64,000 nucleotides of DNA, taken from positions 1-64,000 of the forward strand of contig MGTS01000017.1 in NCBI GenBank assembly GCA_001799565.1, in the 5' to 3' direction. Of this stretch, positions 140-58,989 are shown piece after piece. Under the pieces are notes generated by a model that did not search any database, was not told where the DNA came from, and was given only the letters and a program-made list of their open reading frames with translations. The position numbers were made by a program, and so were the translations under genes. Position 1 is the stretch's first letter. Each line of letters opens with the position of its first letter. Origin of the DNA: Elusimicrobia bacterium GWA2_51_34 (GTDB lineage Bacteria; Elusimicrobiota; Elusimicrobia; Elusimicrobiales; UBA9959).

Positions 140-226
140 ACATTTACAGATTCCGCGTACCGGCGTTCCGGCCGACATCCCCGCTCCTGGCGGCGATTAA
201 CAGTCCGCCCGCGGATTTGGAATTTA

Positions 227-2146: not shown

Positions 2147-2297
2147 CTTACAAACGCTGCGCAGGCTGTTATATGCGGTAATGGATATCAGCCGGCGCGC
2201 GATCTTTCCGCAAACTTGTCCTGATTCGCGGCTGCCGGGAGGGCCTTCCGGCGGTTTTGAAAAGAGCGGTGAAAAGTGAATTCAGGCTGCTGAGCTT
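2071..2297 (+). repeat. 227-bp exact direct repeat, copy 1
   Basis: It covers the last 76 nt of paralogue 1 and about 150 nt of its 3' flank. It matches 4583-4809 base for base by eye. Identity starts abruptly inside the coding region, which suggests a recent gene-conversion or duplication tract. Confidence 0.9.
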
Positions 2298-2572
2298 GGG
2301 AGCAGTAACGGATACATTGGCTGACTATAGGGTCCACCCAGCCCTTTTGGCCACAAGACAAGGCTCTATACGCAATGTTCAAACCTGTCAGCTGAAGTTC
2401 TAAGCCAAAAGAGCTGGGCCCGCTCCGCCTTAGGCTGAAGCGGCAGGCCAGAATCACTGCGAAGGGAAAAAGTCGCCCGCTATTTCAGTGTGCGTTCACC
2501 TTAGGCGGACGAATTTTTCAGGCTAAGGCGGACGCAAGTATTATGTAAGGGATAAAATGGACGAACTGCGCG
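2298..2572. repeat. Spacer with dispersed palindromic repeat fragments
   Basis: No gene. The segment 2431-2505 closely matches 7445-7509 (shared GCGAAGGGAAAAAGTCGCCC followed by GCTATTTCAG). It runs into CTTAGGCGGAC (2500-2510) and CTAAGGCGGAC (2523-2533), which are halves of the GTCCGCCTWAGGCGGAC palindrome seen throughout the window. Confidence 0.65.
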
Positions 2573-2601
2573 TTAGATAAAACAAAAGAATCTGATATAC
2601 T
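2573..2601 (+). promoter_or_regulatory. Promoter of paralogue 2
   Basis: TTAGAT at 2573-2578, a 17-nt spacer and TATACT at 2596-2601, with the spacer conserved relative to the other three copies. The leader is about 155 nt. It includes CCCCGC-TACTT-GCGGGG just upstream of the gene, a hairpin kept in equivalent form in copies 1 and 4. Confidence 0.65.
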
Positions 2602-2762
2602 ACTTTTACGGATTCCGCATACTGGCGTTCTTAATTAGAACGGGCTGCCGCTGAAGGCGCGGTTGAGTGTGATGCCGGAAAAACCTGAATATGGGGCCTG
2701 CCCTGTGAAGCTTTACCCCGCTACTTGCGGGGATCAACGGCCAGCCCGCAGGTCTGAATTCA

Positions 2763-4658
2763 ATGTCGAACGACAAATCCCGAAACATCAAAAAAGTCGT
2801 TTTTTTTAATCTTTGTCTGCTGGCGATACTCGCCGGTTTATGGCAGCTTGTTCCCTACTACAGAATGGTAATCTTGTATCAGCTGTTTGAAGCCGGAGAG
2901 AACTGGTTTTTCGCTTTAACCAAAACTTTTAACAACTACTGGTTCCCTTTTATCCCGGTTGTTATTTCAACCATCCAGTATCATGTCCCCGCCTGGCTGC
3001 AGGCTGGCGCGTGCAAATTTGTCTTCCTGCTGCCGGTGATACTGGCTTTTTCAGCCGGCTCCCTGATACATTCATTTTCCGCCGGAATTCTGTCGGCCGC
3101 GCTGTCCGCGGTTCTGAGCGCACTCCTGTTTTTGTCCACAGGGATTGCTTACGAACAATATATTGAACAGATTTTAATCGCCACCGCGATGCTGATGATT
3201 GTTTGCGGGCTTTTCGTTAAATTCCGGTCTTATACGTTAAGAAGCTTTTTTATCGGCCTCCTTTTGGCTGTGGCGCTGTATACGAAGGGAGTTATCGCGC
3301 TGTTCATCCCCGTTGTTTTTGTGTACGAGGCGTATCGGGAGAAAGGCCGGGCGCTTTTTTTAAGACAATGGCCGGCAATGACCGTGCTCCTGATAGTTGT
3401 TTCGGCCTGGGTTATCGTCAACTGGGTGTGCCGGAATGGATTTGTGCTTCTTGAAGGCGGGCGTGCCGGCGGTAGTATCGTTCAGGGTGCGCTAGGTTTC
3501 ATCTCCAGCATGGAGAGCGACTGGCATGTCTTGGCCGGAATTTCCGCCGATCAGAGCGTGTTCCTGTGGGCGGCCCGTGAAATACTGGCGCACCCGCTGC
3601 GGTATATTTCAGCGATAGGATACCGGCTGCATTACATTTTGTTTATACAACCGCTGGTGCCGGGATTGCCCGTGCTGGCTTTTTTAGGGCTCTGCGGCGT
3701 TTACCGGCTGAGGCGCCTGGCGGACGCGCGGCCGCTGCTGCTGCTTACCCTCTATCTGCTCCTGATACACCTTCTTATGCCTGTGGAAGTGCGCTATTTC
3801 ATGCCGATGTGGTTTTTAGTCTGCACTCTGACGGGGATTTTTCTTGCGGATATGTTCGGCGGAGCTCCGAAGCCGGGCGGATATGAATATGCGAACGCGA
3901 AAGCCGTGTTTTATGGCGCTTGCGCGCCGGTAATTATTTTCTGGGCGGTCAGCTTTATGCTGCTGATATCTTATCCCCTGCGAAGCAGAGCCGCGCACGA
4001 TCTGGGGAAACTGGAAACAGAGTACCCCGGTGTCCCGTGGCTGCACGAAATGGCGGCCCGTGAGGCCCTGGGGGCCGGTAATTTGGGCAAGGCAGCGGAT
4101 TCACGCCTTAAGGCCTACAAGGTGGAAAACTGCTTGCAACGCAAATACTTCTATTTACAAACAGCGTTCATGGCGGGCAGTATTTCCGGCGCTCAACTCC
4201 AGGAACATTTCCAAAGCCACTGGGAACATCAGATACTGATGTTTGCCGCTTTGCGCTATGCCGAAGAGGGGAAACCGGCAAAAACCAGGAAAGTCCTTCC
4301 GTGCGCATTGCAGTTGTGCGTCAGGGAGTCAGCCTGGATGCGTTATGTCGGCGAAAGCAAATATGCCACAATTCTAAGCAAAATGCGAAGGTACGGCGCT
4401 GAATTCTGCCTGGGGTATCTTTCTGGACTGATTTCCACCCTCGATACCAAGAGGCGCAGCATATTGCTGGACAGGCTTGCGCAAATTGATCCAGGCTTGT
4501 GGCGGCCGGAGCTTCTTTTTTCCGCTTTTGAAGTGGGAAACCGGGAATATATGCGCCCGGTTTCTATGGGAGGAGATGTCAAGCCGGAGATTGCGGCCTG
4601 CCTGGGCGTATTTCCTCAGGGGAATCATCCCGGTCCTGGCAGCCCCCGGGCCCGATAA
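2763..4658 (+). CDS. Multi-pass membrane protein, tandem paralogue 2 of 4
   Basis: This 631-residue homologue of the protein at 227-2146 has the same topology: about ten membrane segments in the first 410 residues and a helical TPR-like tail. The start MSNDKSRNIKK aligns with the other copies. The C-terminal 25 codons and the 3' flank are identical to those of paralogue 1, whereas the loop regions (around residues 25-35, 110-120 and 225-255) differ. I recognise no catalytic motif. Its own promoter at 2573-2601 suggests independent transcription rather than a polycistron. Confidence 0.8.
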   Translation: MSNDKSRNIKKVVFFNLCLLAILAGLWQLVPYYRMVILYQLFEAGENWFFALTKTFNNYWFPFIPVVISTIQYHVPAWLQAGACKFVFLLPVILAFSAGSLIHSFSAGILSAALSAVLSALLFLSTGIAYEQYIEQILIATAMLMIVCGLFVKFRSYTLRSFFIGLLLAVALYTKGVIALFIPVVFVYEAYREKGRALFLRQWPAMTVLLIVVSAWVIVNWVCRNGFVLLEGGRAGGSIVQGALGFISSMESDWHVLAGISADQSVFLWAAREILAHPLRYISAIGYRLHYILFIQPLVPGLPVLAFLGLCGVYRLRRLADARPLLLLTLYLLLIHLLMPVEVRYFMPMWFLVCTLTGIFLADMFGGAPKPGGYEYANAKAVFYGACAPVIIFWAVSFMLLISYPLRSRAAHDLGKLETEYPGVPWLHEMAAREALGAGNLGKAADSRLKAYKVENCLQRKYFYLQTAFMAGSISGAQLQEHFQSHWEHQILMFAALRYAEEGKPAKTRKVLPCALQLCVRESAWMRYVGESKYATILSKMRRYGAEFCLGYLSGLISTLDTKRRSILLDRLAQIDPGLWRPELLFSAFEVGNREYMRPVSMGGDVKPEIAACLGVFPQGNHPGPGSPRAR

Positions 4659-4809
4659 CTTACAAACGCTGCGCAGGCTGTTATATGCGGTAATGGATAT
4701 CAGCCGGCGCGCGATCTTTCCGCAAACTTGTCCTGATTCGCGGCTGCCGGGAGGGCCTTCCGGCGGTTTTGAAAAGAGCGGTGAAAAGTGAATTCAGGCT
4801 GCTGAGCTT
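4583..4809 (+). repeat. 227-bp exact direct repeat, copy 2
   Basis: Second copy of 2071-2297. After 4809 the two flanks diverge completely. The third paralogue has a diverged relative of the same 3' flank at about 7325-7433, so this flank belongs to the ancestral duplicated unit. Confidence 0.9.
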
Positions 4810-4943
4810 TGCATAAGCAGCGGGTCCATCGGCCAGTCCCGGCTGACTTCTAACCTGACCCAATAACCGCCGCTAACTCCGGATAACCGTCAACCTGAGG
4901 CGGATGCAAATTGTGTCAGGAATGAAATGGACGAGCCATGCTT

Positions 4944-4971
4944 TTGCTAAAACAAAACAATCTGATATACT
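4944..4971 (+). promoter_or_regulatory. Promoter of paralogue 3
   Basis: TTGCTA at 4944-4949, a 16-nt spacer and TATACT at 4966-4971, with the same AACAAAACAATCTGA spacer as the sister copies. The leader to the ATG at 5416 is unusually long (about 440 nt) because repeat DNA is inserted at about 5105-5378. Confidence 0.65.
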
Positions 4972-5104
4972 ACTCTTACAGATTCGTCATATCGGTGTTC
5001 TTAAGGGCGGGTTGAGCTGGCTATCACTGAAAGCGCGGTCGGATGTCGTGCCGGAAAAACCTGAACATGGGGGGCCGACCTTATGAAGCTTTACCCCGCT
5101 CCTG

Positions 5105-5378
5105 TATACAAGGTCCCGTTCCCTGTTAGCCGGAAAAATTCAGTTGAATTTTTCCCTTCGCTGTGACACTGGCCTGTCGCGGGCCTCTGGCGTCGTCTGC
5201 GACTGAGCTCAGGTGCGCTTCGCGCGGCATACTGCGCTATGCGCGTGCCGTATCAGGGGCAATGGCCTTTAGACGGCCATGCTTGCGTCCGCCTAAGGCG
5301 GACATCTTGAACTGCAGGATTCAGGTTAGAAGAGTACCGGCTTACATTGGGCGTTCCGGTCGGCGTATCCGTTACTTT
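5105..5378. repeat. Composite repeat insertion in the leader of paralogue 3
   Basis: Aligned with the leader of paralogue 4, about 274 bp are inserted between the two arms of the CCCCGC/GCGGGG hairpin. The insert contains a TGACACTGGCCTGTCGCGGG element (from 5164), a GTGCCGTATCAGGGGC element (about 5249, related to 29588-29690) and the GTCCGCCTAAGGCGGAC palindrome (about 5288-5304). It has no transposase and no credible coding capacity. Confidence 0.7.
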
Positions 5379-5415
5379 CGGGGGAACGATAGCCCGTCCG
5401 CATACCTGGAACTCA

Positions 5416-7338
5416 ATGCCAAACGATAAATCCCAGAAAATAAAAAAAGTCGTTTTTTTTAATCTTTGTCTGCTGGCGATACTCGCCGGTTTATGGCAGT
5501 TTGTTCCCGACTCCATGAGCTCCATGAGAACGGTACTCTGGGATAGGCTGTTTGAAGACGGGGAGAACTGGATTTTCGCTTTAACCGAATCTTTTGATAA
5601 TACCTGGTTCCCTTTTTTTCCGGTTGTTGCTTCAACCATCCAGTACCATACCCCCGCCTGGCTGCAGGCGGGAGCGTGCAAATTCGTCTTCCTGCTGCCG
5701 GTGATACTGGCTTTTTCCGCCGGCTCCCTTATACATTCATTTTCCGCCGGGATTATATCGGCTGCGCTGTCTGCGGTTCTCGGCGCACTTCTGTTTTGGC
5801 AATCCCCGCTTGACTACAATCACTATGAAACTCATATTGAACAGAATCTAATCGCCGCCACGCTGCTGATGGTCGTTTGCGGGCTTTCCGTTAAATTCCG
5901 GTCTTATACGGTGAGGAGTTTTTTTATCGGCCTTCTTTTAGCTATAGCACTGCATACGAAGGGGGTTATCGCGCTGTTTATCCCCGTTATTTTTGTGTAC
6001 GAGGCGTATAGGGAGAAAGGCCGGGCGCTTTTTTTAAGACAGTGGCCGGCAATGACCGTGCTCCTGACGGTCGTTTCGGCCTGGGTTATAGTCAACTGGG
6101 TTTGCCGGAACGGATTTGTGCTCCTTGAGGGCAACCGTGCATGCAATGTTATCATTGAGGGGGCCTTAGGTTTAGTCACCGCCACGGGGGGGGACTGGCA
6201 GGTCTCGTCCGGAATTTCCCCCGGGCAGAATATGTTTTTCTGGGCGGCCCGTGAAATAATGGCGCACCCGCTGCGGTATATTTCAGCGATAGGATACCGG
6301 TTGCATTATCTTTTGTTCCTGGAACCTGTAGTGCCAGGATTGCCCGTGCTGGCTTTTTTATGGCTCTGCGGCGTTTACCGGCTGAGGCGCCTGGCGGCCG
6401 CGCGACCGCTGCTGCTGCTTACGCTCTATCTGCCGCTGATACACCTTCTTATGGTAGTGGAAGGGCGCTATTTCGTGCCGATGTGGTTTCTAGTCTGCAC
6501 TCTGACGGGGATTTTTTTTGCGGACATGCTAGGCGGAGCTCTGAAGCCGGGCGGATATGAATACGCGAACGCGAAAGCCGTGTTTTATGCCGCCTCCGCA
6601 CCGGTAATTATTTTCTGGGCGGTCAGCTTTATTCTGCTGATGTCGTATCCCCTGCGAAGCAAAGCCGCGCACGATCTGCGGAAGCTGGAAACAAATTATC
6701 CCGGTATCCCGTTGATACACGAAATGGCGGCCCGTGAGGCATTAAGAGCTGGCGATTTGGACAAGGCCGCGGATTCACGCCGTAAGGCCTACGAGCTGGA
6801 AAAATTCTGTACGTCTCGCAAAGACAACTATTTAAAAACAGCGTTCATGGCGGGCAGTATTTCCGGCGCTCAACTCCAGGAACATTTCCATGATTCCGGG
6901 GAGTATGAGACGCCGATGCTCGCCGCTTTGCGCTATGCCGAAGAAGGAAAATTGGCAAAAGCCGGGAAAGTCCTTCCGTGCGCATTGCAGTTGTGCGTCA
7001 GAAACGCAAGCATCGGCCGTTATGTCGCCGACAGCATAGATGGCATCCTTTTAAAGAAAATGCGAAGGAAAGGCGCTGAAAACTGCCTGAGGTATCTTTC
7101 GAAAATAATTTATACTCTCGATACCGGGAGGCGCGGCGTATTGCTTGACAGGCTTGCGCAAATTGATCCCGGCTTGTGGCGGCCGGAACTTCTTTTTTCC
7201 GCTTTTGAAGCGGGAAACAGGGCAGAATATATACGCACGTATCCCAGGAGCGCCGACCATGAGATCAGGGCGGAGCCCCGGGTCTGCCTGGGCATAGTAG
7301 TTCCACTGGCGGGTCCCGGGTCTGACCCCGGGCGATAA
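5416..7338 (+). CDS. Multi-pass membrane protein, tandem paralogue 3 of 4
   Basis: This 640-residue protein has the same architecture as its neighbours. The reading frame is open for 23 codons further upstream, but the ATG at 5416 (MPNDKSQKIKK) aligns with the starts of the other copies, and the upstream extension lies in inserted repeat DNA. It carries an extra insertion near residue 115-130 (QSPLDYNHYETHIEQN), where all four copies vary. The TPR-like tail follows residue ~420. Function unknown; a GT-C-like enzyme or transporter-like role is possible. Confidence 0.8.
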   Translation: MPNDKSQKIKKVVFFNLCLLAILAGLWQFVPDSMSSMRTVLWDRLFEDGENWIFALTESFDNTWFPFFPVVASTIQYHTPAWLQAGACKFVFLLPVILAFSAGSLIHSFSAGIISAALSAVLGALLFWQSPLDYNHYETHIEQNLIAATLLMVVCGLSVKFRSYTVRSFFIGLLLAIALHTKGVIALFIPVIFVYEAYREKGRALFLRQWPAMTVLLTVVSAWVIVNWVCRNGFVLLEGNRACNVIIEGALGLVTATGGDWQVSSGISPGQNMFFWAAREIMAHPLRYISAIGYRLHYLLFLEPVVPGLPVLAFLWLCGVYRLRRLAAARPLLLLTLYLPLIHLLMVVEGRYFVPMWFLVCTLTGIFFADMLGGALKPGGYEYANAKAVFYAASAPVIIFWAVSFILLMSYPLRSKAAHDLRKLETNYPGIPLIHEMAAREALRAGDLDKAADSRRKAYELEKFCTSRKDNYLKTAFMAGSISGAQLQEHFHDSGEYETPMLAALRYAEEGKLAKAGKVLPCALQLCVRNASIGRYVADSIDGILLKKMRRKGAENCLRYLSKIIYTLDTGRRGVLLDRLAQIDPGLWRPELLFSAFEAGNRAEYIRTYPRSADHEIRAEPRVCLGIVVPLAGPGSDPGR

Positions 7339-7493
7339 CATCCAAACTCTGCTCAGGCTGTTATCCGCAGTAAGGGATATCAGCCGGCGCGCGATCTTTC
7401 CGCAAACTTATCCTGATTCACGGCTGCCGGGTGGGCCCAGCATCCCCCTCAGGCGGAAGCGGGACAGGCCGGAATCACTGCGAAGGGAAAAAG

Positions 7494-7963
7494 TCGCCCG
7501 CTATTTCAGCGGGCGTCCGCCTTAGCCTGAATCCTGTAGTTCAACCAAGTTTTCATTATGAAAATCGGGGAACAGAAATATGCAGGATTCCCCGCAGCAG
7601 TGGGTTGAAAACCAAGCGCAATGCGCGCCAGGTTTTCGAAGGTGTATGCCGCGCGAAGCGCACCTGAGCTCAGTCGCGGACAGCGCCAGAGGCCCGCGAC
7701 AGGCCAGTGTCACCGCGAAGGGAAAGTTTCGCCCGCTATTTCAGCGGGCGTCCGCCTTAGCCTGAATCCTGTAGTTCAACCAAGTTTTCATTATGAAAAT
7801 CGGGGAACAGAAATATGCAGGATTCCCCGCAGCAGTGGGTTGAAAACCAAGCGCAATGCGCGCCAGGTTTTCGAAGGTGTATGCCGCGCGAAGCGCACCT
7901 GAGCTCAGTCGCGGACAGCGCCAGAGGCCCGCGACAGGCCAGTGTCACCGCGAAGGGAAAGTT
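7494..7963. repeat. Perfect 235-bp tandem duplication
   Basis: Two units, 7494-7728 and 7729-7963, are identical by eye. Each contains a TAGCCTGAATCCTGTAGTTCAACCAAG segment (broken here as TAGCCTGAATCC then TGTAGTTC), GCGCGAAGCGCACCTGAGCT and the CGCGGACAGCGCC...GGCCAGTGTCACCGCG element found elsewhere in the window. Short reading frames cross it but have no SD and no homologue. The units look like a recent duplication of noncoding repeat DNA. Confidence 0.9.
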
Positions 7964-8030
7964 TCAACTGAAACTTTCAGGTTAGTCGGACGCAAGTATT
8001 ATGTCAGGTATAAATGTACGCGCCACTCTT

Positions 8031-8058
8031 TTGATGAAACAAAACAATCTGATATACT
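8031..8058 (+). promoter_or_regulatory. Promoter of paralogue 4
   Basis: TTGATG at 8031-8036, a 16-nt spacer and TATACT at 8053-8058, with the conserved AAACAAAACAATCTGA spacer. The 165-nt leader holds GCCGGAAAAAC, CATGGGGCC, GAAGCTTTACCCCGC and the CCCCGC-TCCTG-GCGGGG hairpin just before the gene. Confidence 0.7.
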
Positions 8059-8223
8059 ACTTTACAAATTCGCCATATCGGTGTTCTTAAGGCGGGCTGA
8101 GCTGGCTATCATAGAAAGCGCGCTTGGATGTCGTGCCGGAAAAACTTTAACATGGGGCCAACTTTGGGAAGCTTTACCCCGCTCCTGGCGGGGAACGATG
8201 GCCCGCCGTAAATCTGGAATTCA

Positions 8224-10131
8224 ATGTTGAACGACAAATCCCTGAAAATTAAAAAAGTTGTTTTTTTCAATCTTTGTCTGCTGGCGATACTCGCCGGTTT
8301 ATGGCAGTTTATTCCAGACTTCATAAATACGCAAAACTGGAGTAGTTCGTGTGACGCCGGAGAGAACTGGATTTTCGCCTTAACCGGAACTTTTGACAAT
8401 GCTTGGTTCCCTTTTTTTCCGGTTGTTAATTCAATCATCAGGTATCATACCCCCGCCTGGCTGCAGGCGGGCGCGTGCAAATTTGTCTTCCTGCTGCCGG
8501 TGATACTGGCTTTTTCCGCCGGCTCCCTGATATATTCATTTTCCGCCGGAATCCTGTCGGCTGCGCTGTCCGCGGTTCTCTGCGCCTTCCTGTTTTTGTA
8601 CGGATGGGTTTCTTATCAACTGTATATTGAACAGGCTTTAATCGCCGCCACGATGTTGATGCTTATTTGCGGGCTTTCCATTAAATTCCAGTTTTATACG
8701 TTGAGGAGTTTTTTTATCGGCCTCCTTCTGGTTATAGCACTGCATTCGAAGGGCGTTATCGCGCTGTTTATACCAGTTGTTTTTGTGTATGAGGCGTATC
8801 GGGAGAAAGGCCGGACGCATTTTTTAAGACAGTGGCCGGCAATGACCGTGCTGCTGACTGTTGTTTCGACCTGGATTATTGTCAACTGGGTTAGCCGGAA
8901 TGGATTTGCGCTTCTTGAAGGCGACCGTGCCAGCTCTAATATCGTTGGGAGTGCGCTTGGTTTAGTCGGTACTATGGAGGGCAACTGGCAAGCCTTGTCC
9001 GGAATTATCCCAGGGCAGAGCGTGATCTTGTGGGCGGTCCGGGAAATACTGGCGCACCCGCTGCGGTATGTTTCCGCGATAGGATACCGGTTGTATTATG
9101 TTTTGTTCATGGAACCGATGGTGCCGGGATTGTCCGCGCTGGCTTTTTTATGGCTCTGCGGAGTTTACCGGCTGAGGCGTCTGTCGGCCGTCCGGCCGCT
9201 GCTGCTGCTTACGCTCTATCTGCTCCTGATATATCTTCTGATGCCTGTGGAAGGGCGCTATTTCGTGCCGATGTGGTTTCTAGTCTGTACTCTGACGGGG
9301 ATTTTTCTTGCGGATATCCTCGGCGGAGCTCCGAAGCCGGGCGGATATGAGTACACGAACGCGAAAGCAGTATTTTATAGCGCTTGCGCGCCGGTAATTG
9401 CGCTCTGGTCGGTCAGCTTTATGCTGCTGATATCGTATCCCCTGCGAAGCGGAGCCGCGCATGATCTGCGGAAACTGGAAAGCGAGTACCCCGGTGTTCC
9501 GTGGATACACGAAATGGCGGCCCGTGAATCCTTAAGGACCGGTGATTTGGGCAAGGCCGTGGATTCACGCCGTAAGGCCTACGAGCTGGAAAAATTATGT
9601 ACGTATCGCAAAGGCAACTATTTAAAAACAGCGTTCATGGCGGGCAGTATTTCCGGCGCTCAACTCCAGGAACATTTCTTGGAACTCAATGAATACGAGA
9701 CGCTGATGCTGGCCGCTTTGCGTTACGGCGAAGAGGGGAAAACGGCAAAAGCCGGCAAAATCCTTCCGTGCGCATTGCTGTTGTGCGTCAAAAACTCATT
9801 CGGTATGCGTTATGTCGCCGACAGTATAGATGGCAGCCTTTTGAAGAAAATGCGAAGGAACGGCGCCGAAAACTGTCTGGGGATTCTTTCGGAAATGATT
9901 TCTACTCTTGAAGCTAAGAGGCGCGGCGTATTGCGGGACAGGCTTGCGCGAATTTATCCCGGTTTGTGGCGGCCGGAGCTTCTTTTTTCCACTTTTGAAG
10001 CTGAAAACATGGAAGATTATATGCGCGCGGTTTCCAGGGACTTCGGGGCGGAACATGGGAGCATTCCGGATCCTCAGGTTTGTCTGGGCATAATTCCACT
10101 GGCGGATCCCGGTCCTAACCACGGGCGATAA
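8224..10131 (+). CDS. Multi-pass membrane protein, tandem paralogue 4 of 4
   Basis: This 635-residue last member of the array begins MLNDKSLKIKK. Hydrophobic segments fill the first ~410 residues, then a helical tail with RTGDLGKAVDSRRKAYELE follows. Its 3' flank keeps only the first bases of the flank shared by copies 1-3 (CGATAACATCCAAAC) and then becomes unique, so the duplicated unit ends here. The next gene is a cyclophilin-like lipoprotein, which is itself duplicated. No function can be assigned. Confidence 0.8.
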   Translation: MLNDKSLKIKKVVFFNLCLLAILAGLWQFIPDFINTQNWSSSCDAGENWIFALTGTFDNAWFPFFPVVNSIIRYHTPAWLQAGACKFVFLLPVILAFSAGSLIYSFSAGILSAALSAVLCAFLFLYGWVSYQLYIEQALIAATMLMLICGLSIKFQFYTLRSFFIGLLLVIALHSKGVIALFIPVVFVYEAYREKGRTHFLRQWPAMTVLLTVVSTWIIVNWVSRNGFALLEGDRASSNIVGSALGLVGTMEGNWQALSGIIPGQSVILWAVREILAHPLRYVSAIGYRLYYVLFMEPMVPGLSALAFLWLCGVYRLRRLSAVRPLLLLTLYLLLIYLLMPVEGRYFVPMWFLVCTLTGIFLADILGGAPKPGGYEYTNAKAVFYSACAPVIALWSVSFMLLISYPLRSGAAHDLRKLESEYPGVPWIHEMAARESLRTGDLGKAVDSRRKAYELEKLCTYRKGNYLKTAFMAGSISGAQLQEHFLELNEYETLMLAALRYGEEGKTAKAGKILPCALLLCVKNSFGMRYVADSIDGSLLKKMRRNGAENCLGILSEMISTLEAKRRGVLRDRLARIYPGLWRPELLFSTFEAENMEDYMRAVSRDFGAEHGSIPDPQVCLGIIPLADPGPNHGR

Positions 10132-35999: not shown

Positions 36000-38228
36000 C
36001 TACTGTTCTCCCATCCAGATCTTTCCATTCTCGCACAGGCGGCGCTTGTTTACTGCGCCTGTTCCAAAAAATGCCGTTGAGGTTCTGCTGTCGGAAATTT
36101 CTGTTTGCCCGGACCGGTACGCTTCTATGGAACTTACAAGACTTTTGTTCAGGTTGTTCATGCAGGGGGAGCCCCCCGCGTAACAGATCAGGTAGCGCGC
36201 GCGCGCGCCGTCATTTATGCGCCTGGCATTCAGCGGGTCGGCAAGAAGAACATCTTCAGGGCAGTTCGTGGCGCGCAGCAGCCAAAGGTATTCCGGTTCC
36301 GATATTTCGCCATAGCCCCGTCCGCGCGCGGCTTCAATTTCTTTATCCGCTTTCAAGGAGTCCGGGCTTAAGGGGATGGGTTCGTAGGTCAACAGCCAGG
36401 ATTTCTGTCCGCTTTGGGCCAGGCGCAGAGCCGCGGCGCCCTCGGCCGTCAGTTTGCCCGCTTTGTCAAAAAGAGGGTTGCCTGAATTATCACGGAGTGC
36501 GAAGACATCTCCGAGCGTAATGGACTTGCCTTCAAAAAAAGCCACCGCTTCCCGTGATAAATAGGAAAGGTAAAGCCTGTAGCCCGCGCCCGTCAGTAAG
36601 AGTTTCGGGCCGTTTACATCCGGTCTTTCAAGAATCAGTCCGTTTAGAGAGTGGTGTTGTCTTTTAAGGTAATCCACGGCGCCGTTCCTTTCGGCGGCCG
36701 TAATGTCCCTGAATAATTTAAGGTCTTCAGGGCCGGCGGAGAATTTTTTAGGGTCAACCGCCTGCCGTTCTTTTAATTCGGCAAACGCCTGCTCAGGGAG
36801 GATAAGTTCCGCCTCTATTACAGATAGGCGCGTGCGCGCCTCCGCGTTGGATGGATCGGCCGAAAGTATTTTTTTGTAAATGCCTGAGGCCGACTTTAAA
36901 TCCCCGCGTATTTCAAAGATCTTTGCAAGTCCGCGCATGGCGTTCAAATCTCCGGGGCTTGTTTCAAGGGCCGCTTTGTAGGCTTTTTCCGCGTCGGAGC
37001 CGCGTCCGAGTTTTGTTAAGGTTTCAGCCGTTTTTACCCGGCAAAAAGCCGCCATCGGCTGTTTCTTGTAAAGTTCCGCCGCCCGGTTGTATTGCGCAAC
37101 AGCGTCCTCATAGCGGCCAAGGCGGACCAGCAGAGCGGCGTGGTCCTTACGCAGTTCAGGGTCAGAGGGGCGGTGTTTTAAACATTCGGCGCTTGATCGT
37201 TCGGCTGTTTCAAAGCTTCCTGAAGCAAGTTCCAAGCGGAAGTCCCGCACGCATTTTTCCGGGTCCGCGTACGAGGCTTTCGCGACGGAACCTTCAGCAA
37301 CACCGGCCTGCCCCGCACTTTTTCCGAAAGGGCCAAAGTGCGGGGCAGGGGTCCTGGTTGTGCGCAGTTTTTTTTGTGATGAAAGTTTTTTTATTCTGGC
37401 GTTTATAATTGCGGCGTCAAGCCTGAAGTCCGCGGTTTGTTTTTTTTTAAGCAGGGACATGGCCTTAAGGTAGTCCGCCAGAGCCGTTTGGGTTTCCCCG
37501 AACTTTTCCCTGACCCCGGCGCGGTTAAGATAGGCCTTATAGCTGTGTGAAGACAACTCTACGCCTTGTGACAATATCTCCTCCGCTTTAGCCTCGTTTC
37601 CAGCCTGCGCCCAGGTAAGGCCAAGCTCGCGGTAAACGGCATAAGGCGTTGCGTCAAGTTCAAGAGCTTTTCGGCAGTTGGCGAGCGCCTCTTTTATTTT
37701 TCCGCCGATTCTCTGCAGTTTGCAGAGGCCCAGGTAATAACCGTAGTAGGTTTTTTCCTTTTCCAGCGCGACAGCGGTAATTGTTTTAAAGGCCGAGATC
37801 TGTTCAGTGACACTGTCCGCCTTAGGCGGACGCGGGCCTATGGCGCTGTCCGCGACTGTGACCCCACCACCTGCTTGCCCGACTTTAGCGGGTCCTATCG
37901 GTCCCGAAGCGGGTGGTGGGGTGACACTGTCCGCCTTAGGCGGACGCGGGCCTATGGCGCTGTCCGCGACTGTGACACTGGCCTGTCGCGGGCCTATGGC
38001 GCTGTCCGCGACTGAGGAGTATTCGGGTAAAAGTTCAAGCGTTTGAAGGTAGAGGCTTTTATCAGCGGGAGTTTCTTTAAGCGCCTCAATGGCCGTGGTA
38101 AGCGCTCCCGCCGGCGGAACGGCGGCTCCAAGCTCTTTTGCCTGCGCGGGGCCGGCTGGTTTTTGGCCCGCCGCCGCAAGCAGCAGGGCGATAGCTCCGC
38201 CTAAAAAAAATCTTCCGGTCATGAACAT
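36000..38228 (-). CDS. Exported TPR protein with in-frame palindromic-element insertion
   Basis: 742 residues. It has a signal peptide (FFLGGAIALLLAAAG; the start is at 38228 or the in-frame ATG at 38222). At residues ~71-142 a block encoded wholly by repeat elements reads SVADSAIGPRQASVT, then PPPASGPIGPAKVGQAGGG, then SVADSAIGPR-like again. TPR units follow from ~150 to ~480 (KEALANCRKALELDATPYAV, GRYEDAVAQYNRAAELY, SDAEKAYKAALETSPGD). A C-terminal ~250-residue region of mixed type has no family I recognise. A further hairpin-encoded insert sits near residues 295-307. Confidence 0.8.
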   Translation of the reverse strand: MFMTGRFFLGGAIALLLAAAGQKPAGPAQAKELGAAVPPAGALTTAIEALKETPADKSLYLQTLELLPEYSSVADSAIGPRQASVTVADSAIGPRPPKADSVTPPPASGPIGPAKVGQAGGGVTVADSAIGPRPPKADSVTEQISAFKTITAVALEKEKTYYGYYLGLCKLQRIGGKIKEALANCRKALELDATPYAVYRELGLTWAQAGNEAKAEEILSQGVELSSHSYKAYLNRAGVREKFGETQTALADYLKAMSLLKKKQTADFRLDAAIINARIKKLSSQKKLRTTRTPAPHFGPFGKSAGQAGVAEGSVAKASYADPEKCVRDFRLELASGSFETAERSSAECLKHRPSDPELRKDHAALLVRLGRYEDAVAQYNRAAELYKKQPMAAFCRVKTAETLTKLGRGSDAEKAYKAALETSPGDLNAMRGLAKIFEIRGDLKSASGIYKKILSADPSNAEARTRLSVIEAELILPEQAFAELKERQAVDPKKFSAGPEDLKLFRDITAAERNGAVDYLKRQHHSLNGLILERPDVNGPKLLLTGAGYRLYLSYLSREAVAFFEGKSITLGDVFALRDNSGNPLFDKAGKLTAEGAAALRLAQSGQKSWLLTYEPIPLSPDSLKADKEIEAARGRGYGEISEPEYLWLLRATNCPEDVLLADPLNARRINDGARARYLICYAGGSPCMNNLNKSLVSSIEAYRSGQTEISDSRTSTAFFGTGAVNKRRLCENGKIWMGEQ
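37308..37348. repeat. In-gene hairpin CTGCCCCGCACTTT
   Basis: CTGCCCCGCACTTT (37308-37321) and AAAGTGCGGGGCAG (37335-37348) are perfect 14-bp arms around a 13-nt loop, inside the TPR gene. It encodes PAPHFGPFGKSAGQAG, compositionally unlike the TPR helices on both sides, as for the other in-frame elements. Confidence 0.75.
37804..38016. repeat. Composite palindromic insertion inside the TPR gene
   Basis: Four modules are joined: TGACACTGTCCGCCTTAGGC... with CGCGGGCCTATGGCGCTGTC (37804-37860); a 62-bp palindrome (37861-37922, arms ACCCCACCACCTGCTT / AAGCGGGTGGTGGGGT); a second copy of the first module (37923-37976); and TGACACTGGCCTGTCGCGGG (from 37975). All stay open in the gene's frame. The modules recur at other loci in intergenic DNA or other genes. 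Confidence 0.9.
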
Positions 38229-41271: not shown

Positions 41272-44091
41272 CTATTGCGCCGTGTATCTCCGCTTTTCAT
41301 CCGCGAGAGTATCGTAATATTCCGCTAGATTTTCTCCCGACGAAGCCGCCTTATAAATTTTGCCAATCGGGAAAATAAATGTTTTCCAGGGTGTTTGCAT
41401 GGACCAGAGACCGTCGTTGCCTTCCACATTGTACCAGGAAGCTTTAAAGTCCTTTGCCATAATTTCCGCTAAAAGATGTCCGTAACAGCGCAGCAGTTTC
41501 CAGCCGTCGGTGGTGGGCGCAATGCCGGGGTGGAATGTGTTCTTTAAAATTTGTTCCAACTTCATCAGGCCCGTGCGGTCTGTTTCAATATGGCTGGTTT
41601 CACCTAGGGAAGAGGTCATTATCAGAACGCATTTATGTTCGGTTTGGGCTTCGATTATTTTTTCCGCATGGCTCATAATCTTAGAGCGCGCAGCCGCTGC
41701 GCCCTGAGTCCGTGAGCCGGGAGCGGCGTTGATAGTTTCCTCCAGATAGCACAGGTATTGTATCAGCCAGCCTGGGTCGGGCAGGGCGTCGTGCCAAAGC
41801 AGTCGCCACACGCGTTCTATAGGATAGCTTGTAATCTTCGCTGAGGGCCGCTCAAAGATCATAGGCCAGCCCCAAGGGTCAAAGTCCTGGAACTTTATCA
41901 GCCGGCCTTTAAACCGTTCCTGCAGAACATAACAGAGAAAAGCGGAGCAATCTCTGACCGTGTCTAGTTTTTCCTGGGGCTTGTTTTTTGCGGCGCCAAA
42001 GGTAAGGCGGAGCTTACGCTCAATCTGTGTGAGGCCTTCAGAGTTGAAATAAATTTTCTCCCCGAACTCGTTCTCAAGATCCGAAGCGAATGTGAAGACG
42101 CGTGACAGGAAAGAATCCTTCTTTGTTTCTTCCTGTGAGATGGAGGAAGCCATTATCGTATCGGTGAAAGTTTGCAATTGTATGTCCGGCGCGTTGGAAT
42201 GTCCGCCTGAGCCTGAGGCGGACAAGCCCCGACCTTTTGGCGCCGGACCAGAGGCTTCTTCCTGAGCTTTGTATATATTGTGTTCGGCCGGGCCGTCAGA
42301 AGAGCGGGACAAGTTGCCCGCTGGCGCGGTATGGAGGCCGCCTGCCACTACATCTTCGGCAGGCAAGTTGCCCGCCAGTGCTGTGTGGCGGGCGCCTTCC
42401 TTTGCGCTGTCTATCTGCCGGAATGTGTTTTTTGAACTTTTAACCATTTTAGGAGCCGCGGGTTCAAGTGAAACTGTAGTTTCTTCCGGCACGCCGCTCC
42501 CAGTCGCCGGCCGCTCGCGCACTTGCCCGTCTTTGGCCCCGTCACCCGCTTCAAATAGAGGATTTGAAGAGGGTGATGGGGTGGCGGGTGTTGCCGGTTC
42601 CGAAATGGGTGGTGGGGTGACGCTGTCAGTTTTAGGCAGTCGCGGGCCTCTGACACTGGCGTGCCGGTGGCCTCCGGCGTTGTCATCCGGCCTGGCGTTA
42701 TCCGCGACAACAGGCTCAGGTTTTGCCTTCAAAAGTGAGAGAAAAGCATTTTTAAAAAGCCCTATGACCTTGTCTTTTGGAAATTGATTTATCAGCCGCC
42801 CGGCCGAGGCTGGTTCGGTAAAGGCGATCTCAGCGGTTATGGCCGCTGCTTCTTCCAATTTATGCTCTTTAAGAAGGGTCAGGGCAAGGTTCGCCCGTAC
42901 CTGGATGGAGGGCGAAAAGCGCGCGGACTCACGATAGCAGGCTTCGGCGTGAGCCGTCCGGCCGCAGCGCAGAAAAAAATTCCCCGCGTAAAAAAAGATC
43001 CTGGCGCTCATTTTTGAAGGGTTTTCAAGGGCCGCCTCAAAGGCGACTGCCGCCTCATTTAACCCCGTGGGGTTTTCTGTTTCGGAAACAGTGCCCGCTG
43101 CCGCCATTGCCAGACCGAAAAGCGCTTCCTGCCTGTCATTGCCTCCATCCGCCATGGTTCTAAACATGCGTTGAGCTTCAATAAATTTCCCCTCTTCCAG
43201 TTCAAGCCAGGCGGTTTCAAGATTTTTTTTACGGTCTTGTCCGGCATTCGGGGGGATGGACCCAAGCAACTCCCGGGCGTTACGCTGGTTGCCGGTCCGG
43301 CGGTGGATTTCGGCCAGCAGGCATATCGCCCTAGGGCTTTTATCGCCTTTCAGCAAATCGTAGGCCTCCTGGTATAAGTCAAGTTCCGCGAGCGCTGATG
43401 CTTTTATGAAATCAGTCTGCGGTCCCGCGGGAGCAAGCGAAGCCAGGTAATGGGCGCTGTGCGTCCGTGCCTGTGCTAAAGCTATTTCAGCGGCCTTCGC
43501 GGGGTCAGCCGGGGCTGCAACTTTTCCTGTTTCAGCCGCGTATGGCTCCATAGGCAGTAGATATCCCTGCGGCAAAGTTCCGGAAGTGGGGCCTGCAAGT
43601 GTCTCTATTGCTCCTATCAGCAGGGAAAGCTGCTGTCTGTCGAGACGGACCTCCGCCCCGGCGTCCCGCCCTTTTGGTCCTGGACCAGAGTCTTTTTCCG
43701 GAGCTTTGGATGTATTGTGTTCAGCAGGGCCGCCAAAAGAGCGGGACAAGTTGCCCCCCACAAGCTTGGGGGGGGCGTTGCCGGAAGCACAGGTGGAAGA
43801 ATTGAAAGAGAAAAAATCCGCGGTTTGTGAATGGAAGAATAGTTTAAGAAATTCAAGCGGGGCCCTGGCCACGAAAGGCTGTCTGAGCAGGCGGGAGTCG
43901 GTAAAGGCCGGCAGCAGGTGCGAGCCCTTGTCTTCATAAAGCGGTATTGTGAATAACCCGATTCCGCCTGAATCTTTTTCCGACAGTGGGGCCGCCAGCT
44001 CAAAAAAAGAGAGGAAGTTGTCTATAATGCCGCTAAACGAAGACATTCCGGTTCTGAAAATGTTAAAGTCAGGTAATTGTTCATTTGCCAC
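41272..44091 (-). CDS. Large TPR protein with several repeat-derived insertions
   Basis: 939 residues, no signal peptide. Residues ~1-190 form a unique N-terminal domain with an insert at ~115-145 (GNLSRSFGGPAEHNTSKAPE). TPR-like helices run from ~190 to 460 (AELDLYQEAYDLLKGDKSPR). A long low-complexity region at ~465-640 is mostly repeat-encoded, including PPPISEPATP and a second GNLSRSSDGPAEHNIYKAQE. The C-terminal ~300-residue domain (FASDLENEFGEKIYFNSEGL, FDPWGWPMIFERP) resembles nothing I know. The GTG start at 44091 follows TAAAAT by 6 nt and TTGACA by 25 nt more. Confidence 0.75.
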   Translation of the reverse strand: MANEQLPDFNIFRTGMSSFSGIIDNFLSFFELAAPLSEKDSGGIGLFTIPLYEDKGSHLLPAFTDSRLLRQPFVARAPLEFLKLFFHSQTADFFSFNSSTCASGNAPPKLVGGNLSRSFGGPAEHNTSKAPEKDSGPGPKGRDAGAEVRLDRQQLSLLIGAIETLAGPTSGTLPQGYLLPMEPYAAETGKVAAPADPAKAAEIALAQARTHSAHYLASLAPAGPQTDFIKASALAELDLYQEAYDLLKGDKSPRAICLLAEIHRRTGNQRNARELLGSIPPNAGQDRKKNLETAWLELEEGKFIEAQRMFRTMADGGNDRQEALFGLAMAAAGTVSETENPTGLNEAAVAFEAALENPSKMSARIFFYAGNFFLRCGRTAHAEACYRESARFSPSIQVRANLALTLLKEHKLEEAAAITAEIAFTEPASAGRLINQFPKDKVIGLFKNAFLSLLKAKPEPVVADNARPDDNAGGHRHASVRGPRLPKTDSVTPPPISEPATPATPSPSSNPLFEAGDGAKDGQVRERPATGSGVPEETTVSLEPAAPKMVKSSKNTFRQIDSAKEGARHTALAGNLPAEDVVAGGLHTAPAGNLSRSSDGPAEHNIYKAQEEASGPAPKGRGLSASGSGGHSNAPDIQLQTFTDTIMASSISQEETKKDSFLSRVFTFASDLENEFGEKIYFNSEGLTQIERKLRLTFGAAKNKPQEKLDTVRDCSAFLCYVLQERFKGRLIKFQDFDPWGWPMIFERPSAKITSYPIERVWRLLWHDALPDPGWLIQYLCYLEETINAAPGSRTQGAAAARSKIMSHAEKIIEAQTEHKCVLIMTSSLGETSHIETDRTGLMKLEQILKNTFHPGIAPTTDGWKLLRCYGHLLAEIMAKDFKASWYNVEGNDGLWSMQTPWKTFIFPIGKIYKAASSGENLAEYYDTLADEKRRYTAQ
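42201..42410. repeat. Cluster of in-gene palindromic elements
   Basis: GTCCGCCTGAGCCTGAGGCG ending GAC (42201-42223) is followed by an 85-bp type element (about 42230-42310, copy of 43663-43747). Next come GGACAAGTTGCCCGC and GGCAAGTTGCCCGCC with AGTGCTGTGTGGCGGGCG (about 42363-42397); this last part is shared with rdgB at 44235-44270 in reverse complement. Confidence 0.8.
42551..42715. repeat. Degenerate composite element inside the large TPR gene
   Basis: GGTGGTGGGGTGACGCTGTC with AGGCAGTCGCGGGCCTCTGA and GGCCTCCGGCGTTGTCATCC. This repeats the order of modules seen at 37804-37976 and encodes LPKTDSVTPPPISEP, comparable with PPKADSVTPPPASGP there. A related piece is in the LysM gene at 47240-47275. 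Confidence 0.75.
43663..43747. repeat. 85-bp element with 15-bp terminal inverted repeats
   Basis: The ends GTCCCGCCCTTTTGG and CCAAAAGAGCGGGAC match as inverted repeats in 14 of 15 positions. Copies lie at about 42230-42310 in the same gene and, more diverged inside but with the same ends, at 50773-50855 in the THEP1-like gene. It has no coding capacity of its own, so the plan is MITE-like. Confidence 0.8.
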
Positions 44092-45019: not shown

Positions 45020-47173
45020 GTGAAGATAAGAATTTTTCATAAATTCGTGGCGGTGATGCTCGCCATTTCCGTTGTCCCGCTTTCGCTGCTTGGCTGGCGG
45101 CTCATAAATATGGGACAACGCGGAGTGCAGACCGCTATTCTTGAACTACACCTCAACATAGCCGAAAAAATAGCCTACGGCTTTCATTCCCGTATTGCCT
45201 CCGCCGACACATCGCTGCGTTTTGTGCTGGACGCCCTTGGTTCCATGGACTGGGAAAACAAGCAGACGCTTCTTGCCTCTTATCTTGAAACCAATCCGGA
45301 TATGCTGGAAGTGTCGGTGCTCTCTCCCGGCGGGCAGGAAGTTCTCAAAGCTATAAGTCCTTCCGTTAAGGCCGGGGGGGTATTGGCCTCATACGCCGCG
45401 GATCCCGGCTTTATGGAGTTGCGCAAAACAGGCAGGCGTGTTATAAATTTCGATCTTGCCGGCGGAATAAAAAAAATGATCCTTTACTACCCGTTCGGGA
45501 AGGCGATGGCGCTCAGGGCGGAGCTTGACTTTTCAGGTTTTACAAATCCTCTTGATTCCCATAAACTGGGCAGCGGCGGGTTCCCGGTAATCCTTGACTC
45601 CGCGGGCAGAGCTATTGATTATCCGCGCGACCTTGACCCTGAGGAGGTGAAAGATGCCGGCCTTTGGCAGATCTCTAGAACCGCGCTTACTTCTCTTGCG
45701 TCCGGCTCGGCCGAATTTGAGGATTCCCGGGGCAGAAAGTTTTTGGGCGCCTACTCGCCGATACCTGAAATAGGCGGAACAGTTATAGTCAGGCAGCCCA
45801 AAGAAGTTGCTTTCAGCTACGCGCTTTTCATGAAGAAAGAAGCGTTTTATCTGGTGATCGTTTTTGTGCTGCTCGCGGTGGCCGCGGCCTGGCTGATGTC
45901 CCGCAATCTTTCAAAGCCGATTACCGAACTGACCGGAGTAGCCGCCAGCGTCGCCGGCGGAGACTTTTCCAGGACCGTAACTGTTTCCACCGCGGATGAA
46001 TTGCGCGACCTGGCGGAAACTTTTAATAACATGGTGCGCCGTCTTAAGACCTATTCCGATATGCAGGTTGACCGCATTATCCGGGAGCAAAAAAATACTG
46101 AAGCCGTGCTTTTTTCCACGGAAGACGGCATAGTTATGGTGGACCACGAGCGCAAGGTTCAACTGGCCAATCGCCGCGCGCGTTCGGTGCTGGGGCTTAG
46201 CGCCGAGGGGCCTCTTGAGGGAAAAGCTCTTTTGGAAATCATAAGCGACGCTAAAATGAAAGCGCTTGTTCTGGAGGTACTGGAGAATAAAAAAGAAGAT
46301 TTTTTCGCTGAATTTGAAGTGGACCTGCAACATTCAAGGCGGTTCTTTAAATGTTTCTCAAGGCCTATTGTCGCCCCCGGCAAAGCGGTGGAAATGGGTA
46401 CGCTGGTCGCCTTCTACGATATTACCCTTGACAGGGAGCTGGCAAGGATCAAAGACGAGTTCCTTCATTCCATTACCCACGATTTGCGCAATCCCATGGG
46501 CGCTATAAAAGGTTTCGTGGAATTCCTTCTGAAGGAAATACCCGGTCCGATAAACGAGTCCCAGAAGAAAATGCTGACTTCCATAGACAGGGCTTCATTC
46601 CGTCTGCTCGGGATGATAAATAATATCCTTGACATCGCCAAAATGGAAGCCGGCAAAATGGAGCTGAAACTGACTTCAGTTAACTTGAACGAAATGGGGC
46701 AAAGAGTTATAGAGCTTATGGAGTCCATGGGCCAGAGGAAAAATATAAAATTTGTTCTTGAGGCTGAAAGGACGGTAACGCTGAAGGCTGACTCAGGCCT
46801 GATGGAAAGGATGTTTACGAACCTTATAGGCAACGCCATAAAATTTGCTCCTGAAAACGGGGTCATTACGCTGGGGCTGGAGGAAGGGGAGGGGCAGGTG
46901 ACGGCTTTTGTTCAGGATACAGGCGATGGCGTTCCCCTTGAATACCTTGACAAAATCTTTGAGAAATTTGAACAGGTTACGGGCCAAAAGGCGGGCGGCA
47001 CCGGCCTTGGGCTTACCATCTGCAAACACATCGCCGCGGCGCACCTGGGGCGCATTTGGGCGGAGTCGGAACCGGGAAAAGGGTCAAAATTTATTTTTAC
47101 TGTGCCCAAAGATCTTGCCGCCGGTGAAAATGGCCGCGTGTTGGTAAAGTCCGATAAGCGGGTGGCGGGGTGA
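45020..47173 (+). CDS. Membrane sensor histidine kinase (sensor-HAMP-PAS-HisKA-HATPase)
   Basis: 717 residues. TM1 is at ~10-28, an extracytoplasmic double-Cache-like sensor at ~30-270, TM2 at ~275-295 and HAMP at ~296-350. A PAS-like domain at ~355-465 begins VLFSTEDGIVMVDHERKVQL. HisKA has the phospho-acceptor HSITHDLRNPMGAIKGF near residue 490. The HATPase lobe carries NLIGNAIKFAPENG, DTGDGVPLEYLDKIFEKFEQ and GTGLGLTIC. No response regulator is adjacent. The next gene overlaps by 4 nt (GTGA), so sensor, LysM-FecR protein and TPR protein are likely one operon. Confidence 0.93.
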   Translation: MKIRIFHKFVAVMLAISVVPLSLLGWRLINMGQRGVQTAILELHLNIAEKIAYGFHSRIASADTSLRFVLDALGSMDWENKQTLLASYLETNPDMLEVSVLSPGGQEVLKAISPSVKAGGVLASYAADPGFMELRKTGRRVINFDLAGGIKKMILYYPFGKAMALRAELDFSGFTNPLDSHKLGSGGFPVILDSAGRAIDYPRDLDPEEVKDAGLWQISRTALTSLASGSAEFEDSRGRKFLGAYSPIPEIGGTVIVRQPKEVAFSYALFMKKEAFYLVIVFVLLAVAAAWLMSRNLSKPITELTGVAASVAGGDFSRTVTVSTADELRDLAETFNNMVRRLKTYSDMQVDRIIREQKNTEAVLFSTEDGIVMVDHERKVQLANRRARSVLGLSAEGPLEGKALLEIISDAKMKALVLEVLENKKEDFFAEFEVDLQHSRRFFKCFSRPIVAPGKAVEMGTLVAFYDITLDRELARIKDEFLHSITHDLRNPMGAIKGFVEFLLKEIPGPINESQKKMLTSIDRASFRLLGMINNILDIAKMEAGKMELKLTSVNLNEMGQRVIELMESMGQRKNIKFVLEAERTVTLKADSGLMERMFTNLIGNAIKFAPENGVITLGLEEGEGQVTAFVQDTGDGVPLEYLDKIFEKFEQVTGQKAGGTGLGLTICKHIAAAHLGRIWAESEPGKGSKFIFTVPKDLAAGENGRVLVKSDKRVAG

Positions 47174-57698: not shown

Positions 57699-58382
57699 AT
57701 GATTAAAGCTGTAATTTTTGACATAGATAACACACTCATGGACTTCATGCGCATGAAGCGCGCCTCTGTTGACGCGGCGGTGGACGCCATGATAGACGCA
57801 GGTCTTACTATCGCGAAAGACAAAATGGTGGAGAAAATTTTTAAGATCTATTGGGAAGAAGGCATAGAGGACCAGAATATTTTTGACAAGGTATTAACGA
57901 GCGAATTCGGCCAGATAGATTATAAAATTTTAGCCGCCGGCATCATCGGCTACAAGCGGGCAAAACAGGGGCATATGACGCTTTACCCGCATGTCAAACT
58001 CACTCTTACCGAGCTTTTAAAAGGGGGGGTTAAAATGGGCGTGGTGTCGGACGCTCCCCGCCTGCCGGTGTGGCTGCGCATTGTGGGCCTCGGGCTGCAT
58101 CACTACTTTGAGCATGTGGTAACCTTAGATGATACTGGAGAAAAAAAGCCCTCCCCTAAACCCTTCAATAAAATACTTAAACTTTTAAAAGTAAAGCCGG
58201 GGGAGGCTGTTATGGTTGGTGATTGGGCCGAGCGCGACATTAAAGGCGCCAAGAACCTTGGTATCCGTACGGCTTGGGCTAAATACGGTAACGAATTTGA
58301 CACTAAAATATCGGGAGCCGATTACGAGCTTGACGATATTTACGGCCTGCTTGCCGTGATAAAGGGAATAAATGAGAAATAA
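57699..58382 (+). CDS. HAD-superfamily hydrolase
   Basis: 227 residues. Motif I is VIFDIDNTLMDF (nucleophile Asp, acid-base Asp), motif II VVSDAP near residue 115, motif III the Lys in GEKKPSPKPF, and motif IV VGDWAERDIKGAKN. The helical cap (~20-85) is of the C1 class, so it is a small-molecule phosphatase of the PGP/YjjG type; the substrate is not evident. GGAG lies before the ATG. It overlaps the next gene by 11 nt. Confidence 0.92.
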   Translation: MIKAVIFDIDNTLMDFMRMKRASVDAAVDAMIDAGLTIAKDKMVEKIFKIYWEEGIEDQNIFDKVLTSEFGQIDYKILAAGIIGYKRAKQGHMTLYPHVKLTLTELLKGGVKMGVVSDAPRLPVWLRIVGLGLHHYFEHVVTLDDTGEKKPSPKPFNKILKLLKVKPGEAVMVGDWAERDIKGAKNLGIRTAWAKYGNEFDTKISGADYELDDIYGLLAVIKGINEK

Positions 58383-58989
58383 AGCCGCGGTTGTTTTTAT
58401 GCTGGCTTTTTTTTGCGGCGTCATTAGCGCGGGAACGCTTGAGATTACAAAATTCAGCGCCGCCGCTAAGGACGATTCCACGGACAAAGTTACCCCACCA
58501 CCCGCTTCGGGACCGGAAGGGCCCGCTAAAGTCGGGCAAGCGGGTGGTGGGGTTATGGTGTTCTCCGGCGCGCTGAAAGTGACGGGGATAAGCTTTCAAA
58601 AAAACGCGGTGGTCATGCCGGTTACCGAATACAAGGGGCGTGCCTACACGGATATAAAGCTTCTCTCAAAAGGCCTTTACGCCAAAATAGAGGCCTGCCT
58701 TTCCAAAGGAGTCTGCAAAAACGCGGCCGCGGCCGTTCCGAAAATAAGCGTGGCAGGCGTTAAAATGCTGAAATCAAAAACCCGCGTTGCCAACGCTGAA
58801 ACGGTCTTTGACGGCGAATTGCTGGTGACAGCCGGCGTTATGAATTCTTCGTACGAGCCGGGTGAATTGTGGATAGCCTGGCCAGAAATTTTTAAAATAA
58901 AAAACGCGGCGTTAAAACACAAAACCGAACAACTGATTAAAGAGGCCTACGCCAAAGCCCTGAAAAAACCAGTGGCCAGTGGCCGGTAA
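58372..58989 (+). CDS. Secreted protein with palindrome-encoded N-terminal insert
   Basis: 205 residues. The signal peptide AVVFMLAFFCGVISAG is followed by ~18 residues. Residues ~41-62 (PPPASGPEGPAKVGQAGGG within TPPP...GGGV) are encoded by the 62-bp palindrome at 58492-58553. The remaining domain (VTEYKGRAYTDIKLLSKGLY, KISVAGVKMLKSKTRV) has paired Cys in ACLSKGVC and no family I know. The C-terminal VASGR lies in a further inverted repeat. It overlaps the HAD gene, so it is translated from the same mRNA. Confidence 0.75.
   Translation: MRNKAAVVFMLAFFCGVISAGTLEITKFSAAAKDDSTDKVTPPPASGPEGPAKVGQAGGGVMVFSGALKVTGISFQKNAVVMPVTEYKGRAYTDIKLLSKGLYAKIEACLSKGVCKNAAAAVPKISVAGVKMLKSKTRVANAETVFDGELLVTAGVMNSSYEPGELWIAWPEIFKIKNAALKHKTEQLIKEAYAKALKKPVASGR
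58492..58553. repeat. 62-bp palindromic element, copy in the secreted-protein gene
   Basis: Arms ACCCCACCACCCGCTT (58492-58507) and AAGCGGGTGGTGGGGT (58538-58553) match perfectly over 16 bp; the inner 30 nt include GCCCGCTAAAGTCGGGC. It is nearly identical to the reverse complement of 37861-37922. Because the host gene there is on the minus strand, both genes read the element in the same direction and frame. Confidence 0.95.

Follow-up and report, generated by a model that had tools for sequence, protein, structure and literature searches.

Protein-coding palindromes of Elusimicrobiota insert with a 3-bp target duplication and share their ends with candidate GIY-YIG nuclease elements

How do two unrelated proteins of one bacterium come to contain the same peptide, encoded by the same palindrome? 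Palindromes that code for protein came to light in Rickettsia in 2000 and later in Wolbachia. The present pair lies in a 64,000-nucleotide stretch of the genome of Elusimicrobia bacterium GWA2_51_34 (contig MGTS01000017.1; hereafter the window), where an earlier note had described a 62-bp palindrome in a secreted-protein gene and in a TPR gene. The two palindromes are indeed copies of one element, differing at 4 of 60 positions when aligned in gene orientation, and the peptide that they have in common in gene sense is TPPPASGPxGPAKVGQAGGGV. The length needed correction: the palindromes are real, with true bounds of 60 bp (58493-58552 and 37862-37921), the figure of 62 bp having taken in a single base from the 3-bp duplication on either side. 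The claim that nothing else in the two proteins is alike holds for the comparison between them, although the TPR protein itself contains two further repeat-derived peptides (37800-37859 with 37923-38018; 37302-37346). The features of the window are collected in Table 1, together with the nuclease-bearing elements of related genomes discussed below. Each copy consists of 15-bp terminal inverted repeats, CCCCACCACCYGCTT and its complement, around a 30-bp hairpin-forming centre; the palindrome is imperfect, and the repeats match perfectly in the 58493 copy and with one mismatch in the 37862 copy.

Table 1. Coordinates of the palindrome copies and host genes in the window, and nuclease-bearing elements in related genomes (peptides in gene orientation).
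Feature	Position	Strand	Details
Host gene 1	58372-58989	+	small secreted protein, 205 aa
Target duplication, left copy	58490-58492	+	TTA
Left terminal inverted repeat	58493-58507	+	CCCCACCACCCGCTT
Centre	58508-58537	+	two overlapping hairpins (58508-58525, 58521-58537)
Right terminal inverted repeat	58538-58552	+	AAGCGGGTGGTGGGG
Target duplication, right copy	58553-58555	+	TTA
Encoded 21-aa insert	58492-58554	+	TPPPASGPEGPAKVGQAGGGV, residues 41-61, predicted from sequence
Host gene 2	36000-38228	-	TPR protein, 742 aa
Second 60-bp copy	37862-37921	-	encodes TPPPASGPIGPAKVGQAGGGV, residues 103-123
Target duplication, one side	37859-37861		TGA
Target duplication, other side	37922-37924		TGA
Degenerate copy	42537-42617	-	in 942-codon open frame (TPPPISEPATPATPSPSSNPLFEAGDGA)
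Solitary half-copy	47156-47170	-	single terminal repeat, 1 mismatch, TNA flank
Nuclease element	G017		GIY-YIG gene, same ends; found by search for longer same-ended elements; one end truncated
Nuclease element	G007:C204		same end type, TGA...TGA; itself interrupted by palindrome
Nuclease element	G043:C55		311 bp, same end type, TGA...TGA
Nuclease element	G043:C52		284 bp, related C-rich repeat TCCCCCACCAACC, TGA...TGA
Nuclease element	G170:C122		317 bp, related C-rich repeat TCCCGCACCTT, TGG in gene sense

The window holds other repeats as well. A second, more abundant family (TGACACTG...GCGGACAGCGCCATAGGCCCGC...) occurs at 37800-37859, 37923-38018, 5161-5207, 7669-7713 and 7904-7948; it encodes SVADSAIGPRPPKADSV in the TPR gene, where it surrounds the 37862 element, and has 44 matches in the window genome, 22 in the related genome G001 and 41 in G002. 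A third palindrome in the TPR gene (37302-37346) encodes APHFGPFGKSAGQAG, and peptides like it are found in a PolyA_pol-type enzyme of G002 and at L034, where the sequence adjoins the main element. Positions 215-10038 comprise four tandem repeats of 2.5-2.8 kb, each with an open frame of about 630-660 codons, which are 63-89% alike. The window contains no tRNAs.

A search for further copies, which the earlier note had proposed, found many, both in this genome and in its relatives. Blastn against the 2.63-Mb genome gives 19 matches, the best other copies at E = 2e-22, and the half-pattern matches nine times in the window against 0.5 expected, which together exclude a chance origin. A looser repeat-pair definition gives at least 27 copies in the genome after merging, 16 of them genic by a simple home-made codon-usage score; more than half of the scored copies lie inside genes. 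DNA identity between copies in unrelated genes is about 90% by blastn. The palindromes are mostly 54-123 bp long, contain no transposase gene and are dispersed in many copies. Within the genus and the family its presence is patchy, some relatives having copies and others none; the exact-ends pattern is present in 10 of 341 genomes and 6 of 100 genera of the phylum, and the paired pattern, sought among 84,980 species genomes, appears only in records named Elusimicrobia or Elusimicrobiota. Viral contigs gave 28 matches to the 18-base end pattern, approximately the chance number by a rough estimate, and no inverted pair was reported among them. Several loci (L009, L011, L031, L033 and L018) have other palindromic repeats nested in the centre of the element, forming composites of 96-123 bp in which the frame is mostly still kept. 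A 1169-bp repeat pair at L165 was discarded: it spans two separate palindromes, with unlike triplets.

Insertion is recorded in the flanks. In a set of 76 copies whose repeats contain no more than two mismatches, the flanking triplets are identical in 60, and identity extends to four bases in none. These triplets are TNA in 55 of the 60 cases, with the middle base agreeing between the sides; this count is partly ascertained, because some copies of genus g6 were found by a pattern requiring TNA on one side, which leaves the two-side agreement unaffected. A palindrome extended by chance would yield complementary triplets, so their identity argues against that origin. Empty sites are found in relatives: in a metallo-hydrolase gene the filled site of G007, TATGA[element]TGAAGCGCC, corresponds to TATAAGGCGCC in G017; in rimP, GGGAGTA[element]TTACCC in G015 corresponds to GGCGTTACGC in G004; in a histidine kinase gene, GGAATTA[element]TTAACATTG in G006 corresponds to GGAGTTAACATCG in G004; and for the tRNA synthetase PheT, too, a relative has the empty site. 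The element has thus inserted into pre-existing genes, leaving a 3-bp duplication.

The same is visible at the protein level. Alignments for eleven hosts reveal inserts of exact or nearly exact length in PheT, RimP, the histidine kinase, a PolyA_pol head-domain enzyme (tRNA nucleotidyltransferase-like) and further proteins; in NadC, a DUF192 protein and an outer-membrane efflux protein the insert lies N-terminally or in a linker. For RimP and PheT, identity and insertion point were compared against solved structures; the RimP insert falls between IDREN and TLDDC, stretches that directly follow one another in the solved chain of RimP, 7afi_X. The same RimP loop has inserts of differing length in G000 (L296), G001 (L293) and G015 (L255), which suggests a tolerant site with repeated insertion or retained remnants. 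As to the window hosts, the palindrome in the secreted-protein gene lies between the signal peptide and the conserved domain. Orthologues of this protein occur in 24 of the 41 genomes searched, and the palindrome peptide is missing from all ten that were aligned; at the site the linker of G001 is different and that of G002 is shorter. The N-terminal insert is missing from the aligned TPR orthologues as well. The earlier note had raised the prospect that the peptide might be ancestral to either protein; across the family the orthologues of both proteins are without it, and it occupies a linker of variable length, the sequences there being too diverged for a base-exact empty site.

Inside genes, the palindromes keep largely to one frame. 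Phase 1 (TPPPA...AGGGV) is used by 21 of 25 genic copies against 11.0 expected if every open phase of the host strand were equally likely (P = 4e-6, the copies being incompletely independent). The length is divisible by three in 24 of 25 genic copies against 30 of 67 others (P = 3e-6), and the net insert lengths (60+3, 54+3, 78+3, 96+3 and 123+3) of genic copies are, with few exceptions, multiples of three. Read in the favoured frame, the repeats encode TPPPA and AGGGV, a Pro/Ala/Gly-rich linker, and this reading accounts for survival as in-frame peptides in surface loops and linkers. Exceptions such as the G007 metallo-hydrolase insert, read as DPTTC...SRWWG, indicate that other frames can survive too. 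The simplest account of the single-frame habit is selection against bulky or frame-breaking insertions rather than design; it requires no benefit to the host. With its empty sites, many copies and in-frame inserts, the element bears out the original proposal of a mobile palindrome that survives in open reading frames in the manner of the Rickettsia elements.

The centre of the element forms hairpins. Folded as single-stranded DNA, the two window copies reach z = -6.1 and -3.8, with no shuffle as good, and stems of at least 5 bp adjoin both repeats in 36 of 75 copies against 0.9 in shuffles. The outer hairpin stems comprise 38 different sequences. The ends can pair as a long stem capped by the two hairpins, and pairing is retained while the hairpin sequence varies, which suggests that shape matters; presumably it serves mobility.

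A candidate source of the element came from related genomes: five genes there, each for a single-domain GIY-YIG nuclease, are enclosed by C-rich inverted repeats and 3-bp duplications, of which four are TNA. Three of the five (G017, G007:C204 and G043:C55) bear the palindrome's own repeats. A blind scan of 55 nuclease loci found four with inverted repeats and identical TNA triplets and a fifth with TGG, while 0 of 2000 random window intervals gave such a result. In G007, G043:C55 and G043:C52 the frame crosses the right inverted repeat (KEVVG, RQVVG and MVGGG, respectively) and ends with the duplication's TGA as its stop codon. The proteins match Pfam PF01541 (E = 1.5e-11 and 1.3e-15) with conserved Tyr/Arg/Glu positions, and the closest solved chain is 1zg2 (E = 6e-10). 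Two same-ended nucleases are 40% identical, with the residues of the catalytic domain conserved, so the association of nuclease and repeat is not a recent single event; in a 341-genome search these nucleases form a clade separate from others. Sequence at the ends of the nuclease elements is shared with several palindromes (L165, L167, L169, L154 and, from the window genome, C42:122306), where shuffled queries average 0.3 hits, and a fourth relative, G147:C18, has a related palindrome at its 3' end. The derivation of some palindromes from nuclease-bearing elements is thereby supported. The Blast hits of L191 and L186 on the G007 nuclease element were disregarded, because they arise from the palindrome nested in it.

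Only five nuclease-bearing elements were found, each in single copy. The nuclease clade is absent, at E <= 1e-15, from the window genome (98% complete), whose copies are therefore either old or the work of an unseen mover. Among viral contigs the only GIY-YIG relative was a distant one without repeats; in plasmids the matches were weak and fell on UPF0213-type genes of the ordinary kind, carried by very large replicons. Near one element end, L158 and L165 show an RBS-like AGGA and an ATG opening a short frame that ends KQVVG-stop at the edge. Elsewhere, at L327 (G163:C60) and L334 (G334:C7), a single-domain GIY-YIG gene lies next to or within an apparent tRNA gene; judged by eye, the 5' part of the tRNA sequence recurs on both sides, as if the GIY-YIG gene had inserted there and restored an intact tRNA.

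These observations make it probable that the palindromes are MITEs, formed by internal deletion from a one-gene GIY-YIG element of about 285-390 bp, with the nuclease as the putative mover. The palindromes combine terminal inverted repeats, a target duplication, small size, lack of a transposase gene and dispersed copies, as MITEs do, and their ends recur in three of the GIY-YIG elements, which are candidate autonomous partners. The parent would have the same ends and, as its sole gene, a single-domain GIY-YIG nuclease spanning nearly the whole element. The nuclease may make a staggered 3-nt cut at TNA, and the hairpin-ended element could then be copied or joined into the break during repair, giving the 3-bp duplication. 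To our knowledge GIY-YIG nucleases are not known to join strands, so the joining step would be without precedent. The nuclease could also be a mere passenger. That the nuclease itself drives transposition, which would make this a new prokaryotic transposable element of about 285-390 bp with the protein-coding palindromes as its tiny derivatives, we propose tentatively, stopping somewhat short of calling it probable.

The main rival is a DDE transposase acting in trans, in which case the palindromes would be MITEs of an undiscovered insertion sequence, for example an IS1031-like member of the IS5 family, and the GIY-YIG genes captured cargo. Inverted repeats with a fixed 3-bp TNA duplication, as found here, are typical of DDE elements; those of the IS1031 group also duplicate TNA, and full-length insertion sequences are often missing from metagenome assemblies. 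Against this, the sequences scanned contain no repeat pair with CCCYACCACCYGCTT ends 400-4000 bp apart and matching TNA other than one around a GIY-YIG gene, and no DDE transposase was seen between the element's repeats in these repeat-pair scans. Cargo also explains poorly why, in three families and with differing inverted repeats, five nuclease genes should occupy their elements from one end to the other. We consider a DDE source possible if doubtful.

Three further readings fare worse. A functional RNA or DNA structure (terminator, attenuator or protein-binding site) amplified by selection, mobile or not, would suit the strong fold and the arms that vary yet stay paired, but more than half of the genome's scored copies are in open reading frames, where a terminator would do harm, and the window has no Rfam match; we consider this improbable. 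Mobilisation of REP-type palindromes by a Y1 transposase of the RAYT/IS200-like type might be suspected from the five to six Y1_Tnp genes in the genome and from the hairpins that the element ends form. The repeat is nonetheless absent within about 1.5 kb of all six Y1 loci, and target duplications flank 60 of 76 copies, whereas Y1 transposition leaves none that we know of, which makes this reading very improbable. That the peptide is ancestral, or a convergent Pro/Gly-rich linker with the palindrome as by-product, could draw on its position in linkers and on the other, length-variable sequence at the RimP site of G001 and G000. It is hardly tenable in the face of about 90% DNA identity between unrelated genes, intergenic copies and exact empty sites, and as an account of ancestry it is refuted by the empty sites of several hosts.

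Among described systems, the nearest are the Rickettsia palindromic elements (RPE) and the Wolbachia palindromes, likewise short, with inverted repeats, inserted in frame in many unrelated and often conserved genes, and with a translated frame common to copies (PMC2229807; PMC10969869). In-frame fusions are exceptionally frequent for RPE (PMC10969869); their target duplication is uncertain, entered as '?' in Table 1 of PMC2229807, which also states that the way in which such elements move lacked experimental backing. The palindromes of Elusimicrobiota behave as RPE do and stand apart from them in size (54-123 bp, mostly 54-83, against 105-146 bp) and in taxon; they differ further in their Pro/Gly linker peptide, clear 3-bp TNA duplication and candidate parent element. 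With ERIC, Correia/NEMIS, YPAL and Coxiella QMITE1 they share non-autonomy, inverted repeats, a target duplication and occasional in-frame fusions (PMC2229807; PMC10969869), and differ from them in the TNA duplication, the genic location of more than half of the scored copies and the two-hairpin core; no tie to a known insertion sequence was found for the Elusimicrobiota palindromes. The nuclease has the catalytic domain of UPF0213/YazA proteins and GIY-YIG homing endonucleases, but its gene, unlike theirs, lies between inverted repeats flanked by 3-bp duplications, has a frame that ends in the element end, and is not in an intron. The eukaryotic Penelope-like retroelements are also mobile elements with a GIY-YIG endonuclease; they encode reverse transcriptase, whereas the Elusimicrobiota nuclease elements carry no other gene. 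The literature searched held no described equivalent and no paper joining GIY-YIG, MITE and insertion sequence; the other GIY-YIG works found concerned, by their titles, only eukaryotic elements or unrelated matters.

A distant phylum thus shows RPE-like behaviour together with clean duplications, empty sites (rimP, pheT) and a candidate nuclease, which make the origin and movement of coding palindromes directly testable. The inserts also document, in nature, which loops of conserved proteins can accommodate 21 extra residues. If the nuclease does drive transposition, its elements would be among the smallest autonomous transposons, and it would be the mobilising enzyme for coding palindromes.
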